Shown one piece after another: positions 50,111 through 55,848 of a stretch of DNA of 64,000 nt; the stretch's first letter is position 1, and the number at the start of each line of letters is the position of its first letter. The DNA comes from Bifidobacterium sp. B4142 (GTDB taxonomy: Bacteria > Actinomycetota > Actinomycetes > Actinomycetales > Bifidobacteriaceae), in NCBI RefSeq assembly GCF_026537325.1, contig NZ_JAFNMJ010000001.1:950129-1014128 (forward strand), given 5' to 3'. A model generated the notes under the pieces. The model did not search any database and was not told where the DNA came from. It saw nothing but the letters and a program-made list of their open reading frames with translations. The position numbers and the translations under genes were made by a program.

Positions 50111-50893
50111 ATGGCACGCATTCCCCTGGTGGCCGGCAATTGGAAGATGAATTTCGACCACCTGGAAGCCACCTATTTCGTGCAGAAGCTGGCCTGGCTC
50201 CTGCGCGACGCCCACTTCGACCGCAGGCGTTGCCAGGTGGCGCTGATGCCCGCCTTCACTGCCCTGCGCTCCGTCCAGGTGCTGGTGGAGGCCGACAACC
50301 TGCCCATCGAGTATGGGGCGCAGGCCGTCTCCGTCACCGCCCAGGGAGCCTTCACCGGGGATGTGTCCGCTGACATGCTGGCCCAGCTGGGCTGCAGCTA
50401 CGTCATTGTGGGCCACTCCGAGCGACGCAAGTACCATCCCGAGGACGACGCCAACATCGTCGACCAGGTCCGTGCCGTCCTGGCTGCGGGCATGAAGCCC
50501 ATCCTCTGCGTGGGGGAGAGCTACGAGGAGCGCCGCCAGGGCATCCAACTGGACTTCGCCGTGGGCCAGGTCAACGACGTCACCCGGGACCTGGCCAAGG
50601 AGGACATGGAAAACCTGATTGTGGCCTACGAACCGGTCTGGGCCATCGGCACCGGCATGGTGGCCACCCCGGACACCGCCCAACAGGCCGCCCGGGCCAT
50701 CCGCGACCACATCTCAGGCAAGTTCGGAGAGCCTGCCGGCCAGGCCGTGCGCATCCTCTACGGTGGCTCGGTCACTTCCAAGAATGCCTCCCAGATGATC
50801 ACCCAGCCGGACGTGGACGGCTTTCTGGTGGGCGGCGCCTCCCTGGACGTGGAGGAGTTCGCGCGGATCGTGCGACTGGCTGCCAAGGGTTGA
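50111..50893 (+). CDS. tpiA: Triosephosphate isomerase
   Basis: A 260-residue enzyme interconverting dihydroxyacetone phosphate and glyceraldehyde 3-phosphate. Catalytic residues are visible: the lysine in GNWKMN, the histidine in VGHSERR and the glutamate in AYEPVWAIGTG; the phosphate loop is YGGSVTSKN. ATG at 50111 gives the standard MARIPLVAGNWKMN start behind GGAAAGG; an ATG five codons upstream overlaps that ribosome binding site. Confidence 0.97.
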   Translation: MARIPLVAGNWKMNFDHLEATYFVQKLAWLLRDAHFDRRRCQVALMPAFTALRSVQVLVEADNLPIEYGAQAVSVTAQGAFTGDVSADMLAQLGCSYVIVGHSERRKYHPEDDANIVDQVRAVLAAGMKPILCVGESYEERRQGIQLDFAVGQVNDVTRDLAKEDMENLIVAYEPVWAIGTGMVATPDTAQQAARAIRDHISGKFGEPAGQAVRILYGGSVTSKNASQMITQPDVDGFLVGGASLDVEEFARIVRLAAKG

Positions 50894-50953
50894 TGCGTTT
50901 TTCCCCGGGTATCTGTATACTTGTTCCCAGTTCCTTACATGGAGGTATGTGCC

Positions 50954-51202
50954 GTGACCATTGTCAAGATTGTGCTCGAAGTCGTTGTGATCCTCGCCAG
51001 CATACTGCTGACCATGCTGATTCTGCTGCACAAGGGCAAGGGCGGCGGCCTGTCCGATATGTTCGGCGGCGGAATCGGCTCCAACGCCGGCACCTCAGGT
51101 GCAGCCGAGAAGAACCTGAACCGGCTGACCATCATCGTGGCCCTAATCTGGGTGGCCATCATCATCGCCTTGGATCTCATTACCAAGTACAAGCTGGCCT
51201 GA
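50954..51202 (+). CDS. secG: Protein-export membrane protein SecG
   Basis: An 82-residue protein with two membrane helices (about 3-25 and 55-76) linked by a glycine-rich loop (HKGKGGGLSDMFGGGIGSN), the SecG pattern. It assists SecYE in protein export. The GTG at 50954 is chosen because GGAGGT at 50941-50946 is 7 nt upstream; frames opening at 50921 or 50939 would put that site inside the gene. It ends the uvrA-to-secG string and is followed by a Rho-independent terminator. Confidence 0.9.
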   Translation: MTIVKIVLEVVVILASILLTMLILLHKGKGGGLSDMFGGGIGSNAGTSGAAEKNLNRLTIIVALIWVAIIIALDLITKYKLA

Positions 51203-51230: not shown

Positions 51231-51255
51231 ACCCCGGCATTGACCGGGGTTTTTG
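51231..51255 (+). terminator. Rho-independent terminator after secG
   Basis: ACCCCGG (51231-51237) and CCGGGGT (51244-51250) form a 7-bp stem with a 6-nt loop followed by a run of five T, 28 nt after the secG stop. Confidence 0.85.
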
Positions 51256-51434
51256 CATATCTGGACGACTTTAGTGCGGGCTCCTAGTCCTTGACTATTA
51301 CCACAATATGTCATTCACAATGCACCGATAATCCAACGATTCAGCCGCCTGACGGATAGAGTAGAGAATGGTGTGCCCGACGAGCGGCGCATCACACAAT
51401 GTCGTGCAAGCTAAGCAAGCGAAAGGAAGTGCTC

Positions 51435-52193
51435 ATGGCTGAGCAAGCTGCACCGAGCCTGGAGGGCTGGTTCTGCCTCCACCTCTTCTGGAAGATTGAT
51501 TGGGCCAAGTGGCGCAGAGCGCCGCAGGACGAGCGCCGAGAATGCCTGGATCAGTTCAAGGCCCTTGCCGCACAGCTGGACGCGGTCCAGTCCCAGGGTA
51601 AGGGAAGCCACTACTGGTGTCAAGTCAATGGGCAAAAGGCCGACCTGGGCCTGATGGTCCTCAGGGAGACCCTGGAACAGTTGCAGGAGGTCGAAACCTC
51701 CCTGGAGAAGCTGCGCTTCTCCGATTATCTGGAGCCGACCATCTCCTATGTGTCGGTCACCGAGGTGGGCCTCTACTCGGGCAAGCCGACCACTGACCGC
51801 GGTTGGTCCTACGTCGACGCCAGCCTGCATCCCAAGACGCCCGACAAGCCCTACATTTGCTTCTACCCCATGTCGAAGACCCGCGTCCCCGGCGCCAACT
51901 GGTACACGCTGCCCTACGACCAGCGCAAGGCCTATATGCACGACCACGGCAAGATCGGCCGTTCCTACGCCGGGAAGGTCTCCATCATCCTGACAGGTTC
52001 CATTGGTCTGGACGACTACGAGTGGGGCGTTACCTTGTTCGCCGACGACCCCATCGAGTTCAAGAAGATCGTCACCGAGATGCGCTACATCGAAGCCAGC
52101 TCCATCTATGGCGAATTCCCCTACTTCCTGGTAGGCACCCAGACCGATCCTGAGCGCATTGACAGGCTGCTCACGGACCAGATGGGACAGTAG
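51435..52193 (+). CDS. hemQ: Coproheme decarboxylase (HemQ/ChdC)
   Basis: A 252-residue protein of the chlorite-dismutase-like fold in its HemQ form. The core YICFYPMSKTR (with the tyrosine region of the active site), WYTLPYDQRKAYMHDHGKIGRSYAG (with the likely proximal histidine) and DDYEWGVTLFADDPIEFKKIV are all present. It turns coproheme into heme b by two decarboxylations, the last step of the coproporphyrin-dependent pathway of Gram-positives. The ATG at 51435 has AAAGGAAG upstream. It starts a three-gene unit with an MFS transporter and CpfC. Confidence 0.93.
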   Translation: MAEQAAPSLEGWFCLHLFWKIDWAKWRRAPQDERRECLDQFKALAAQLDAVQSQGKGSHYWCQVNGQKADLGLMVLRETLEQLQEVETSLEKLRFSDYLEPTISYVSVTEVGLYSGKPTTDRGWSYVDASLHPKTPDKPYICFYPMSKTRVPGANWYTLPYDQRKAYMHDHGKIGRSYAGKVSIILTGSIGLDDYEWGVTLFADDPIEFKKIVTEMRYIEASSIYGEFPYFLVGTQTDPERIDRLLTDQMGQ

Positions 52194-52196
52194 CAC

Positions 52197-53594
52197 ATGA
52201 CGACAAGAGAGGGAAGATCAATCCTCGCCACGCCCTTATGGTTCTTCATGGTCATCGTTTTCATCACCCAGCTGGATGGGGGAGCGGTGCCGACCATGAT
52301 GCCGTCCATCACACGGACCTTCGGCCTGACCACCATCGGCTCCTCCTGGGTGGTTGGCCTGTACACCCTGGGCCTGGTGGTGGGCACTCCCATCACATCC
52401 AACCTCTCCGATGCACACGGGACCAGGAAGGTCTTCCTCTGGGAGCTGGCCTTCTGGTTCCTTGGATGTCTGATGACGGCGGTCTCGCCCAACTATGCAG
52501 TCATGCTGCTGGGCCGGTTCATCCAGTCTCTGGGAGACAGCGGCATCATGGTCCTGTCCATGAACGTCCTTCTGCAGCGCGCCCGGAGGAACAGCCAAGG
52601 CAGGAAGGTTTCCACGGTGGGCATCATCGCCGGCCTTTCCGCCATGGTCAGCCCGGTCCTTTCGGGCATGCTCCTGGGCATCACCCACGGATGGCGTGCC
52701 TACTACTTCATGATACTGCCCTTTTTAGCCATTTTGTTCATACTGGCCTGGTTCATGATGGGCGATTCCCAGACCGACCGCGCCTGGAAGACCGACTACC
52801 TGGGCCTGGGCTCCTTCAGCGTAGCTCTGGCCCTGCTGATGGTAGCAATCACCTTCCTCCAGTACGGAACCACCTACCTGCTCCTGATCATCGGATGCCT
52901 CCTGGTCGCAGTGATGGCCGGCGCGGTATTCCTGTTGCATGAGCGTAATCTGGGCGGCTCAAGCGAGACCATGCCCTTCCTGCCCATCCGCCTGCTGAAG
53001 CTGCCCTCCTATGGGCTCACCCTGCTGCTGGGAATGCTGGGAGGCATGTTCTTCTCCCTCTTCGTATACATTCCAACCTATGTCCATTCAGTCTTCGGGC
53101 TCCCGGTCCGTTCGGCCGGCATGGTCATGGTTGGCGTCGGGCTCGGTTCTGTGGTCGGGTCCTGGCTGGGCGGGCTGCTGGTCGACAAGTTCGGCTACCG
53201 GACCACGCTTGTCTTCTCATCGTCTTTGATAGGCCTGATGGCCCTGATGATCACCCTGACCCTGCACAATCTGCAGCTCTTCATGCTGCTGTCTTTCCTG
53301 ATGGGGGTCGGCATGGGCTCGATGATGTCCTCGCCGCTCCAGGTGATCGCCGGAAGGCTGGCCGGGCCCGAAAACCGTATGCAGGCCATAGGCGGGCTGT
53401 CCGCTTGTAAGAAAATCGGCACCACCATCGCCCCCCTGCTCTTCGCCTCGGCCATTGAACTGGGCAAGGTGGGCGGACAGGCTGGACTGGCCTCTTACAG
53501 GAACATGTTCCTGGTGGTCATCGTCATAGCCCTGGTCAATATCGGCCTGACATACTGCATTCCATTTTCACAGAAAGAAGTTGCTGATGACTGA
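52197..53594 (+). CDS. MFS transporter of the DHA2 (14-TM) type, inside the heme cluster
   Basis: A 465-residue membrane protein with about 14 hydrophobic segments. The loop-2 signature GTPITSNLSDAHGTRKVF and the motif LGRFIQSLGDSGIMV match the drug:H+ antiporter-2 group, as does GGLLVDKFGYRT. It starts 3 nt after the hemQ stop and overlaps cpfC by 8 nt. Its place between two heme enzymes suggests a porphyrin, heme or precursor substrate, or protection against porphyrin toxicity. By sequence alone it could equally be a general multidrug pump. Confidence 0.88.
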   Translation: MTTREGRSILATPLWFFMVIVFITQLDGGAVPTMMPSITRTFGLTTIGSSWVVGLYTLGLVVGTPITSNLSDAHGTRKVFLWELAFWFLGCLMTAVSPNYAVMLLGRFIQSLGDSGIMVLSMNVLLQRARRNSQGRKVSTVGIIAGLSAMVSPVLSGMLLGITHGWRAYYFMILPFLAILFILAWFMMGDSQTDRAWKTDYLGLGSFSVALALLMVAITFLQYGTTYLLLIIGCLLVAVMAGAVFLLHERNLGGSSETMPFLPIRLLKLPSYGLTLLLGMLGGMFFSLFVYIPTYVHSVFGLPVRSAGMVMVGVGLGSVVGSWLGGLLVDKFGYRTTLVFSSSLIGLMALMITLTLHNLQLFMLLSFLMGVGMGSMMSSPLQVIAGRLAGPENRMQAIGGLSACKKIGTTIAPLLFASAIELGKVGGQAGLASYRNMFLVVIVIALVNIGLTYCIPFSQKEVADD

Positions 53595-54510
53595 ACCTAC
53601 AGCTGTCCTCCTCATGGCGTACGGCACCCCCTACCAGGAGTCCGACATAAAGGGGTACTACACCAACATCCGCCACGGGCAGGAGCCGCCCAAGCCGCTC
53701 ATGGACCAGCTGGTCGGCCGCTACAAGGCCATCGGTCTGCCCTCGCCCCTGGCCAGGATCACCACGGCCCAGCGCGACGGTCTTCAGGCTGCGCTGGACA
53801 AGGCCCATCCCGGCGCCTACAAGGTCTACGAAGGTTTGAAATACATCGCCCCCTTCATCAAGGATGCGGTCGACCAGATTGCCGCCGATGGCATCACCAA
53901 GGTTATTGGCCTGCCCCTTGCCCCGCATTACTCCTCATATTCGAGCGAGGACTACCACAACCGTGCCAGCAGGGCCATCGAGTCCCATCCGGGCATGGGA
54001 TACCTGCCGGTGCGGTCCTGGTGGAACCACCAGGCACTGATCCGCTTCTGGAGCGATCAGCTGGTGGCCATGAAGGATCTGACCGACCGGCCGGACACCA
54101 AGGTGATCTTCAGCGCCCACTCACTGCCCCTGCGCATCATCCAAGGAGGGGACCCCTACAAGGATGAGGTCATCGGCCTATCCAATGCCGTGGCTCAGGC
54201 CGCCGACCTCAATGAGGACCAGTACGTGCTGGCCTGGCAGTCGGCAGGCCGCACCCAGGAGCCTTGGATCGGCCCTGATTTCGTCAATGTGGCCAAGGAT
54301 CTGATCACCAAGAGCGGCATGAAGACCATCGTCTCCGCCTCCATCGGCTTCATCGCCGACAACCTGGAAATCTGTTATGACGTGGACATTGAGCTGACCA
54401 GGGCCATTGAATCAGCCGGCGGCACCCTGACCAGGTTGAACTTGCCCAACGACAGCCCCGCCCTGATTGCCGCCCTGCAGCAGGTGGTCGAAGAGACCAA
54501 GACAGAGTAG
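53587..54510 (+). CDS. cpfC: Coproporphyrin ferrochelatase (CpfC/HemH)
   Basis: A 307-residue ferrochelatase. The iron-site histidine H178 is in FSAHSLP and the acidic partner E261 in NLEICYDVD; YGTP near the N-terminus and the PLAPHYSSYS motif are also present. In organisms with HemQ it inserts iron into coproporphyrin III, giving coproheme for the HemQ step encoded two genes upstream. The ATG at 53587 overlaps the MFS stop by 8 nt. A strong hairpin follows the gene. Confidence 0.93.
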   Translation: MTEPTAVLLMAYGTPYQESDIKGYYTNIRHGQEPPKPLMDQLVGRYKAIGLPSPLARITTAQRDGLQAALDKAHPGAYKVYEGLKYIAPFIKDAVDQIAADGITKVIGLPLAPHYSSYSSEDYHNRASRAIESHPGMGYLPVRSWWNHQALIRFWSDQLVAMKDLTDRPDTKVIFSAHSLPLRIIQGGDPYKDEVIGLSNAVAQAADLNEDQYVLAWQSAGRTQEPWIGPDFVNVAKDLITKSGMKTIVSASIGFIADNLEICYDVDIELTRAIESAGGTLTRLNLPNDSPALIAALQQVVEETKTE

Positions 54511-54554
54511 TCGTATAAGAGTAGTCACATATCTACTTGGAATTTTGTTGAGAT

Positions 54555-54598
54555 ATCGACTGTGCCCCGCCGGTTCAAACCGGCGGGGCACAGTCGAT
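54555..54598. terminator. 21-bp perfect hairpin between convergent cpfC and tal
   Basis: Positions 54555-54575 and 54578-54598 are perfectly complementary with only CA between them. No T-run lies on either side. Its symmetric position between convergent genes suggests bidirectional termination or protection of both mRNA 3' ends. Confidence 0.7.
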
Positions 54599-54628
54599 AG
54601 TCGCTCGCGGCGGCTGTCAGTCAGGCGC

Positions 54629-55738
54629 TCAGCCGTTGACGCGATCGATGCCCTTCTGTACGTCGGAGAGGACCGAATCCCAGGAGTCGATGAAGGCGGC
54701 GACGCCATCGGCCTCCAGCTTGTCGGTCACGTCCTTGATGCTGATGCCCAGGTCAGCCAGCTTCTGCATCACCTGGTGGCTCTCCTGATAGGTGCCCTTG
54801 ACCGAGGGAGCGCCATTGCCGTGATCGGCCAGAGCATTCAGGGTCTTCTCTGGCATGGTGTTGACCACGTCAGGGGCCACCAGCTCGTCCACATACTTGC
54901 AGTCGGAGTAGGCGGCGTTCTTAGTGCCGGTGGAGGCCCAGAGCGGACGCTGACGCTTGGCTCCCTTGGCTTCCAGGCCAGCCCAGCGAGGATCGTTGTC
55001 AAAAGCCCTCTCGAAGAGCTCATAAGCCAGGCGGGCATTGGCCACAGCGGCCTTGCCCTCCAGGGACTTGGCCTCGTCAGATCCGTTGGCCTCCAACAGT
55101 TTGTCAACCGCAGTATCCACGCGGGAGACGAAGAAGGAGGCCACCGAGCCCATGTGCTTCAGGTCATGGCCGTTCTTGTCAGCCTGGACCATGCCCTCTA
55201 TGAAGGCATCAATGACCTGCTTGTAGCGCTCCAGGGAGAAGATCAGGGTCACGTTGACTGAGATGCCCTTGGCCAGGGTGGCGGTGATGGCGGGTAGGCC
55301 CTCTAGGGTAGCGGGAATCTTGATCATGGCGTTGGGCCGGTCGACCTTGTTCCAGAGCTCTTCGGCCTGCTTCTCGGTCTCTTCTGTGTTGTGGGCCAGA
55401 CGAGGATCGACCTCGATAGAGACGCGTCCATCCACGTAATCGGTCTTCTCAGCAACCTCGCGGAAGATGTCGGTGGCGTTACGCACGTCGGTTGTGGTTA
55501 GCTCGCGGACGGCCTCCTCAACGGGTATGCGACCCAGTTGCTTGAGCTGTTCGTCATAGGGGCCCACCTGGCTCAAGGCCTTCTGGAAAATCGAGGGGTT
55601 GGTGGTCACGCCCACCACATTGCGCTCGGCGATCAGCTGCTGCAGATTGCCCGACTCGATGCGGGTGCGGCTCAGGTCGTCCAGCCAGATCGAGACACCT
55701 GAATCGCTGGTGCGCTGGGTGTTTGCATTTTCTGCCAT
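54629..55738 (-). CDS. tal: Transaldolase
   Basis: A 369-residue enzyme of the actinobacterial transaldolase type. The Schiff-base lysine is K140 in AMIKIPAT, and VTTNPSIF and ASTGTKN are further family elements. With transketolase it interconverts sugar phosphates, which in bifidobacteria regenerates substrates for the fructose-6-phosphate (bifid) shunt. ATG at 55738 follows AAGGAG; the longer upstream frame is unsupported. It lies 156 nt after tkt on the same strand. Confidence 0.96.
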   Translation of the reverse strand: MAENANTQRTSDSGVSIWLDDLSRTRIESGNLQQLIAERNVVGVTTNPSIFQKALSQVGPYDEQLKQLGRIPVEEAVRELTTTDVRNATDIFREVAEKTDYVDGRVSIEVDPRLAHNTEETEKQAEELWNKVDRPNAMIKIPATLEGLPAITATLAKGISVNVTLIFSLERYKQVIDAFIEGMVQADKNGHDLKHMGSVASFFVSRVDTAVDKLLEANGSDEAKSLEGKAAVANARLAYELFERAFDNDPRWAGLEAKGAKRQRPLWASTGTKNAAYSDCKYVDELVAPDVVNTMPEKTLNALADHGNGAPSVKGTYQESHQVMQKLADLGISIKDVTDKLEADGVAAFIDSWDSVLSDVQKGIDRVNG

Positions 55739-55848
55739 CTTGTCACTCCTTATTTGGGTTCCCGATGGAATCACATTCACTATGCTCTACCGGGAAGTCT
55801 ATTGCTGTATTCCCCCAGGCCCGCGTTTCGGACGTGTTTTGCAGGGGA

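Follow-up and report, generated by a model that had tools for sequence, protein, structure and literature searches.

How could a bifidobacterium that seems unable to build porphyrins make use of the last two enzymes of heme synthesis? The question is raised by a 64,000-nucleotide stretch of the genome of Bifidobacterium sp. B4142 (RefSeq GCF_026537325.1, contig NZ_JAFNMJ010000001.1, positions 950,129 to 1,014,128), here called the window, in which three genes are read on the forward strand in the order hemQ, a gene for a major facilitator superfamily (MFS) transporter with 14 transmembrane segments, and cpfC. Only 3 nt lie between hemQ and the MFS gene (52194-52196), and the MFS gene and cpfC overlap by 8 nt (53587-53594), with the ATG of cpfC sitting within the 3' end of the MFS gene. 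The reactions of CpfC and ChdC (HemQ) are established chemistry. The original prediction, made from the letters of the window, had described these three genes and their spacing, all of which are present in the sequence, and had proposed that the cell could complete heme from porphyrin supplied by others. The data below give good support to reading the three genes as a functional unit that completes heme from a coproporphyrin-type precursor of external origin. The best explanation appears to be a mobile coproporphyrin-salvage operon with the MFS protein as its likely importer; this rests on genome logic, from which we infer both substrate and direction.

Heme synthesis and heme use in the host genome

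The assembly is 2.22 Mb in size and 99.95% complete. No hemB was found in it by a search that was positive in 11 of 14 control genomes, and hemC was absent from all 27 Bifidobacterium genomes examined (11 of 14 controls positive). CgoX (TIGR00562) rose over its cut-off in none of the 27, compared with four of the 14 controls; CgoN was not part of this search. A CgoX candidate in the B4142 genome was a weak match whose best model was PRK07208, and it was rejected. Proteins passing the Pfam cut-off for the URO-D family occur in 14 of the 27 genomes, B4142 among them (47.5 bits), and the B4142 protein (354 aa) was considered as HemE. It matched no NCBIfam model at an E value of up to 1 and was dismissed, which leaves no recognisable HemE. 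Users of heme are encoded, namely a heme catalase and a cydBDCA cluster in which two ABC genes stand between cydB and cydA. Because hemB, hemC, a recognisable hemE, and a cgoX over its cut-off were not found, coproporphyrin III or coproheme from outside would, as far as tested, be the only material from which the cell could complete heme. These searches had been proposed along with the idea of completing heme from supplied porphyrin, and the missing early genes and the heme users both support that idea.

Distribution within Bifidobacterium

Among the 27 genomes, the cassette is conserved in 13, decayed in one, and absent from 13. HemQ was found in 14, whole in 13 (B4142 included, 89-100% identity) and in pieces in G018 (G and L numbers are our labels for genomes and loci). 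The gene order was compared across the genus, as the original prediction had suggested, and the MFS gene and the start of cpfC follow hemQ in all 13 genomes with an intact hemQ; cpfC is whole in nine longer loci of the asteroides group. The genes for triosephosphate isomerase and SecG precede the cassette in 12 of the 13; the remaining genome, G008, has its contig end upstream of hemQ. Among the 13 cassette-free genomes, 12 have only 0.2-1.4 kb between secG and the transaldolase gene, too short for a 3-kb set; in the other, G017, no transaldolase gene was found within the 1.5 kb fetched behind secG.

Both cydA and catalase are found in all 13 cassette genomes, compared with 11 (cydA) and five (catalase) of the 14 genomes without an intact set. 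In a Fisher test that ignores kinship, hemQ was associated with catalase (p 0.0006) and not with cydA (p 0.22).

The decayed locus (L014, G018:C18) retains remnants of hemQ and cpfC at the same spot, where tblastn found no match to the end of hemQ, to the MFS gene, or to the start of cpfC. G018 still has cydA and catalase.

Distribution beyond the genus and on plasmids

Genomes were scanned with patterns taken from an alignment of five cassette MFS proteins, and 61 pattern matches yielded 21 loci: nine from the asteroides group, one from B. aemilianum, two from further Bifidobacterium, six from Lactobacillaceae, and three from Enterococcus. In 21 of 21, the MFS gene is flanked by hemQ (intact or as remains) and cpfC, a count biased towards cassette MFS proteins because the patterns were built from cassette members. 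Some of these loci are damaged, with hemQ broken or shortened in L068, L070, and L072, the MFS gene broken in L071, and cpfC partial in L070, a metagenome-assembled genome (MAG) locus whose MFS gene also has an internal gap. HemQ itself, a selection independent of the MFS protein, was found in six of 397 Lactobacillaceae genomes, four of which also belong to the 21 of the scan; in all six, the MFS gene (one of them broken) and the start of cpfC stand behind it. The association of the genes is beyond chance, holding in 13 of 27 genomes of the genus and at 21 of 21 scan loci, some with broken or partial genes. No hemB was found in 20 of the 21 cassette genomes, a count weakened by the fact that several are MAGs and their completeness is not told. 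The exception, Companilactobacillus versmoldensis, has its hemB, together with hemA, hemC, and hemL, within a stretch of cobalamin genes (names read from translations).

Among plasmid records, 80% or more of the MFS protein is covered in 11, and a HemQ match is present in 33. The six plasmid loci that were opened, from L. plantarum, L. reuteri, L. panis, Loigolactobacillus, Lactococcus lactis, and E. faecalis, all have hemQ followed by the MFS gene and then cpfC; hemQ is whole in Lactococcus lactis and E. faecalis and reduced to remains in the other four. Trees of HemQ, the MFS protein, and CpfC agree in separating an Enterococcus/Lactococcus group from a Bifidobacterium/Lactobacillaceae group, which fits joint inheritance of the three genes. 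Their inner branches are partly weak, and cpfC of L065 and the genes of L066 shift position between trees. Five near-identical asteroides-group sequences, HemQ pieces shorter than 205 aa (L068, L070, L017), and the broken L071 MFS were left out; no HemQ frame was found for L021 and no CpfC frame for L070, L085, and L087. The HemQ rows of L018, L072, and L022 are the longest open piece only, and the L070 MFS was kept despite its internal gap.

Several features of individual loci were recorded. In a set of closely related Lactobacillaceae cassettes (L017, L018, L021, and L022 on plasmids; L068 and L072), the MFS gene and cpfC are whole alongside a broken or shortened hemQ; there, the first two may be of use without hemQ, or the decay of hemQ may be recent. 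The Lactococcus/Enterococcus plasmid version (L019, L020) has a multicopper oxidase gene and a second MFS gene just 5' of hemQ, with transposase genes around it. Downstream of the Lactobacillaceae cassette in L018 (8305-9359) lie genes for a permease (FtsX by Pfam) and a PAS-domain protein, and genes similar to this pair occur in L017, L021, L022, L069, and L071. They perhaps encode a heme or porphyrin exporter and a sensor.

The transporter

In hmmscan, the MFS protein matches Pfam MFS_1. Its best NCBIfam model is EmrB, at 111 bits where 230 are required, and no specific cut-off was passed among the 25 models shown. Hydropathy gives 14 transmembrane segments, merged by hand from 19 raw stretches, which is the helix count of DHA2 and the number given in the original prediction. 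A profile search of eight cassette genomes returned the eight cassette MFS proteins at 564-764 bits; of 69 further places, the top one scored 320 bits and the next 158 bits. The DHA2 tree that had been proposed was built as a quick tree from ten cassette rows and the 22 DHA2-like paralogues for which a locus was available among the 69 places; named multidrug pumps were not included in it. The ten cassette proteins form one clade (SH-aLRT 95) apart from the 22 paralogues, and the sister of this clade is the 320-bit Agrilactobacillus protein. The same neighbours are found over cassette MFS proteins down to 27% identity. The original prediction had named two outcomes that would speak against it, namely a full heme pathway together with an MFS protein placed among multidrug pumps, or an MFS gene missing from the same spot in close relatives; neither was seen, in a tree that lacked named pumps.

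Two adjoining lysines, K405 and K406, are invariant in the 14 aligned cassette proteins and in the ten tree rows. None of the 22 paralogues has Lys-Lys there: the first residue is Arg (19) or Gln (3), followed by Gln, Thr, Asn, or Ser. For a substrate bearing four carboxylates, a second positive charge lying within the membrane close to the C-terminal half would make sense. The Agrilactobacillus protein (L125, G039:C52), the nearest relative outside the cassettes, has Arg-Gln at this position; its gene neighbours, both judged by eye, are a TetR-like gene and one for an NAD(P)/FAD oxidoreductase.

Motif C of antiporters, which we take to be GPxxGG, reads SPVLSG in the window protein and is degenerate throughout the cassette clade. 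The GG is missing in some paralogues too, so the motif cannot decide the direction of transport, and it was given no weight as proof of import.

The two enzymes

By hmmscan, the first gene encodes a Chlor_dismutase/HemQ protein and the third a ferrochelatase. HemQ scores 300 bits against NCBIfam PRK12276 (cut-off 253), which places it in the ChdC/HemQ family, and 71 bits against the HemQ_actino model (cut-off 235). Its nearest relatives with solved structures are named HemQ, putative heme-dependent peroxidase, and coproheme decarboxylase, and presumably come from Geobacillus and Listeria. CpfC scores 229 bits against Pfam Ferrochelatase (PF00762), as expected of a CpfC-type ferrochelatase. The PDB entries that match it best, with scores reaching 236 bits, are listed as ferrochelatase or coproporphyrin III ferrochelatase, the bacterial forms scoring far over the mitochondrial ones (236 vs 110 bits).

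The claim that both enzymes keep their active-site residues held in part. In CpfC, H178 and E261, which we take to be the catalytic His and Glu, are present. All 12 aligned HemQ sequences keep the presumed catalytic Tyr, Lys, and His (Y144, K148, H171). The position that we take to be the distal Gln does not follow suit: it is occupied by Gln in eight of them, which include Lactobacillaceae, Lactococcus, Enterococcus, and Priestia, by Ile in the window (Ile184) and at L063 and L064, and by Pro at L066.

At L066 (6370-9457, Bifidobacterium sp. ESL0784), three cpfC-like genes stand in a row, the cassette being followed by two extra, diverged ferrochelatase genes. Their products match Pfam Ferrochelatase and retain the His and Glu; they perhaps act on a different metal or porphyrin.

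Proposed function and alternatives

A cell seemingly unable to build porphyrins would, in the scheme that we favor, use the MFS protein to import coproporphyrin III (or coproheme) released by neighbours or by the host. CpfC would insert Fe2+ to give coproheme, HemQ would use H2O2 to decarboxylate two propionates and yield heme b, and heme b would go to cytochrome bd and the heme catalase. Among Bifidobacterium and Lactobacillales without an upper pathway, all three genes would move together as a unit. Import is the most economical reading of the MFS protein and, judged from gene content and context, probably the right one. A bolder form of this proposal, for and against which we see the chances as evenly balanced, would make the MFS protein a dedicated coproporphyrin III importer with its own clade beside DHA2 and a Lys-Lys pair that reads propionates, and the cassette a mobile, sometimes plasmid-borne “respiration enabler” by which a fermenter whose cytochrome bd and catalase stand idle would come to respire on its neighbours' porphyrin.

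Several observations weigh against salvage of an outside porphyrin by this operon. The HemQ of the window lacks the distal Gln. The upper-pathway search, negative for hemB, hemC, and a recognisable hemE, did not extend to hemA, hemL, hemD, or other importers of heme or porphyrin. The bias of the 21-locus count and the uncertain completeness of those genomes, both given above, belong here as well. In 11 of the 14 genomes of the genus without an intact hemQ, cydA is present, so that either heme is obtained there without the cassette or cyd is idle. Furthermore, in the available part of a study of Leucobacter GP, a different actinobacterium with lower pathway genes, coproporphyrin III gave no growth rescue (PMC6868719).

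The serious rival to import is export. In this case, the MFS protein would serve detoxification, expelling surplus heme, coproheme, or coproporphyrin as HatT and PefAB do, and porphyrin would enter by another route. The nearest characterised MFS relatives are mostly exporters, MFS heme exporters are known, and the B4142 genome was not searched for other importers, all of which favors export. However, without uptake the two enzymes would have no substrate, and the cassette in the window holds no other transporter. The six loci with a broken or shortened hemQ (L017, L018, L021, L022, L068, L072), near copies of one lineage, keep the MFS gene and cpfC whole, which fits the handling of a substrate better than the export of product heme, and L018 also has a separate FtsX-type permease downstream. 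On balance, we regard export as unlikely. A drug pump that merely happens to be located in a heme operon is far less probable still: Pfam and NCBIfam show only MFS of the drug-efflux kind, with no specific cut-off passed, but the same neighbours recur in 21 of 21 scan loci, in six of six plasmid loci, and in six of six HemQ-bearing Lactobacillaceae (four shared with the 21) at identities down to 27%, and the cassette proteins fall into a single clade that excludes the paralogues in the comparison.

The chemistry could also run in reverse, with CpfC removing iron from heme or coproheme for iron gain. This was proposed for enterococcal HemH because other heme genes are absent; the 2024 review, in the part available, calls the function of hemH unknown and supposes heme degradation (PMC11282960), and the word hemQ does not occur in it. 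HemQ, a forward consumer of coproheme, nevertheless adjoins cpfC at three Enterococcus scan loci and at the two opened Lactococcus and E. faecalis plasmid loci; the hemH of E. faecalis V583 that the review discusses may or may not lie in such a cassette. We consider iron gain improbable, and synthesis of heme from an imported precursor the better account of the cassette.

Relation to known systems

Like the coproporphyrin-dependent heme pathway of gram-positive bacteria (CgoX, CpfC, ChdC/HemQ), the cassette has CpfC and ChdC of families with solved structures so named. It differs in that hemB, hemC, a recognisable hemE, and a CgoX over the cut-off are missing and an MFS gene lies within the operon. 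Transporters for heme-like molecules have been described, including the MFS exporters HatT and PefAB and the ABC exporter HrtBA, according to the part available of the source (PMC12670364). Unlike these, the cassette MFS gene stands inside a biosynthetic operon, has no adjoining regulator gene in the window, and is proposed to act inward. A neighbour's coproporphyrin also serves as a growth factor for Leucobacter sp. ASN212, a heme-deficient actinobacterium fed by Sphingopyxis, in an account (cited in PMC6868719) whose accessible text names no transporter or cassette.

Among the bifidobacteria tested in one study, B. asteroides PRL2011 was the only one reported to consume O2 (Bottacini 2012, PMC3447821, seen in part). 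A missing HemQ has been offered as a possible reason why three cyd-bearing bee isolates did not, and bifidobacterial HemN was suggested to be HemW (PMC9004370, likewise from part of the text). The MFS gene, the mobility of the cassette, the missing CgoX, and the proposal of salvage do not appear in the portions available of the PRL2011 respiration accounts (Bottacini 2012 and a 2022 stress-gene survey). We found no description of this MFS protein or of a mobile hemQ-MFS-cpfC cassette in the full-text literature searched, which mostly leaves out subscription papers.

The cassette offers a concrete candidate for coproporphyrin uptake by a heme-less bacterium, a step without a known protein in the literature examined, and a possible mechanism behind the published O2 consumption by B. 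asteroides alone. With the same central transporter, it is common to bee-gut bifidobacteria, lactic acid bacteria, and their plasmids, and is not a bifidobacterial oddity. It also suggests a different role for the orphan “hemH” of lactic acid bacteria, perhaps including enterococci, and porphyrin cross-feeding in bee guts and fermented foods becomes testable with three genes.

Genomic setting

Features of the cassette and its flanks, with positions counted within the window.
Feature	Position	Strand	Remarks
hemQ/chdC, coproheme decarboxylase, 252 aa	51435..52193	+	Bacillota kind rather than HemQ_actino kind
14-TM MFS transporter, 465 aa	52197..53594	+	Cassette-specific clade near DHA2; proposed importer of coproporphyrin III or coproheme, substrate and direction deduced from context
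cpfC/hemH, coproporphyrin ferrochelatase, 307 aa	53587..54510	+	ATG start
Upstream block with TTGAC box	51286..51345	+	Largely conserved across nine aligned asteroides-group sequences; probable promoter or operator region
G+C-rich inverted repeat and T run 3' of secG	51231..51254	+	Present in seven of nine aligned sequences; probable terminator
Perfect 22-bp inverted repeat between convergent cpfC and transaldolase genes	54554..54599	.	Probable two-way terminator
Left flank: triosephosphate isomerase and secG	50129..51202	+	secG is a presumed name
Right flank: transaldolase	54629..55780	-	Convergent to cpfC

The left flank also holds the gene for phosphoglycerate kinase, and the terminator 3' of what we take to be secG would probably part the cassette from these glycolysis genes. 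Beyond the transaldolase gene on the right lies a convergent gene, presumably for transketolase. G+C content at third codon positions is 0.80-0.83 in the cassette and 0.78-0.88 in the flanks; recent transfer was considered on this measure, and the cassette, falling inside the flank range, shows no sign of it. In four comparisons, dN/dS was 0.05-0.16 for hemQ, the MFS gene, and cpfC alike. Because of this range and the flank-like composition, the cassette appears to be an old, maintained set.

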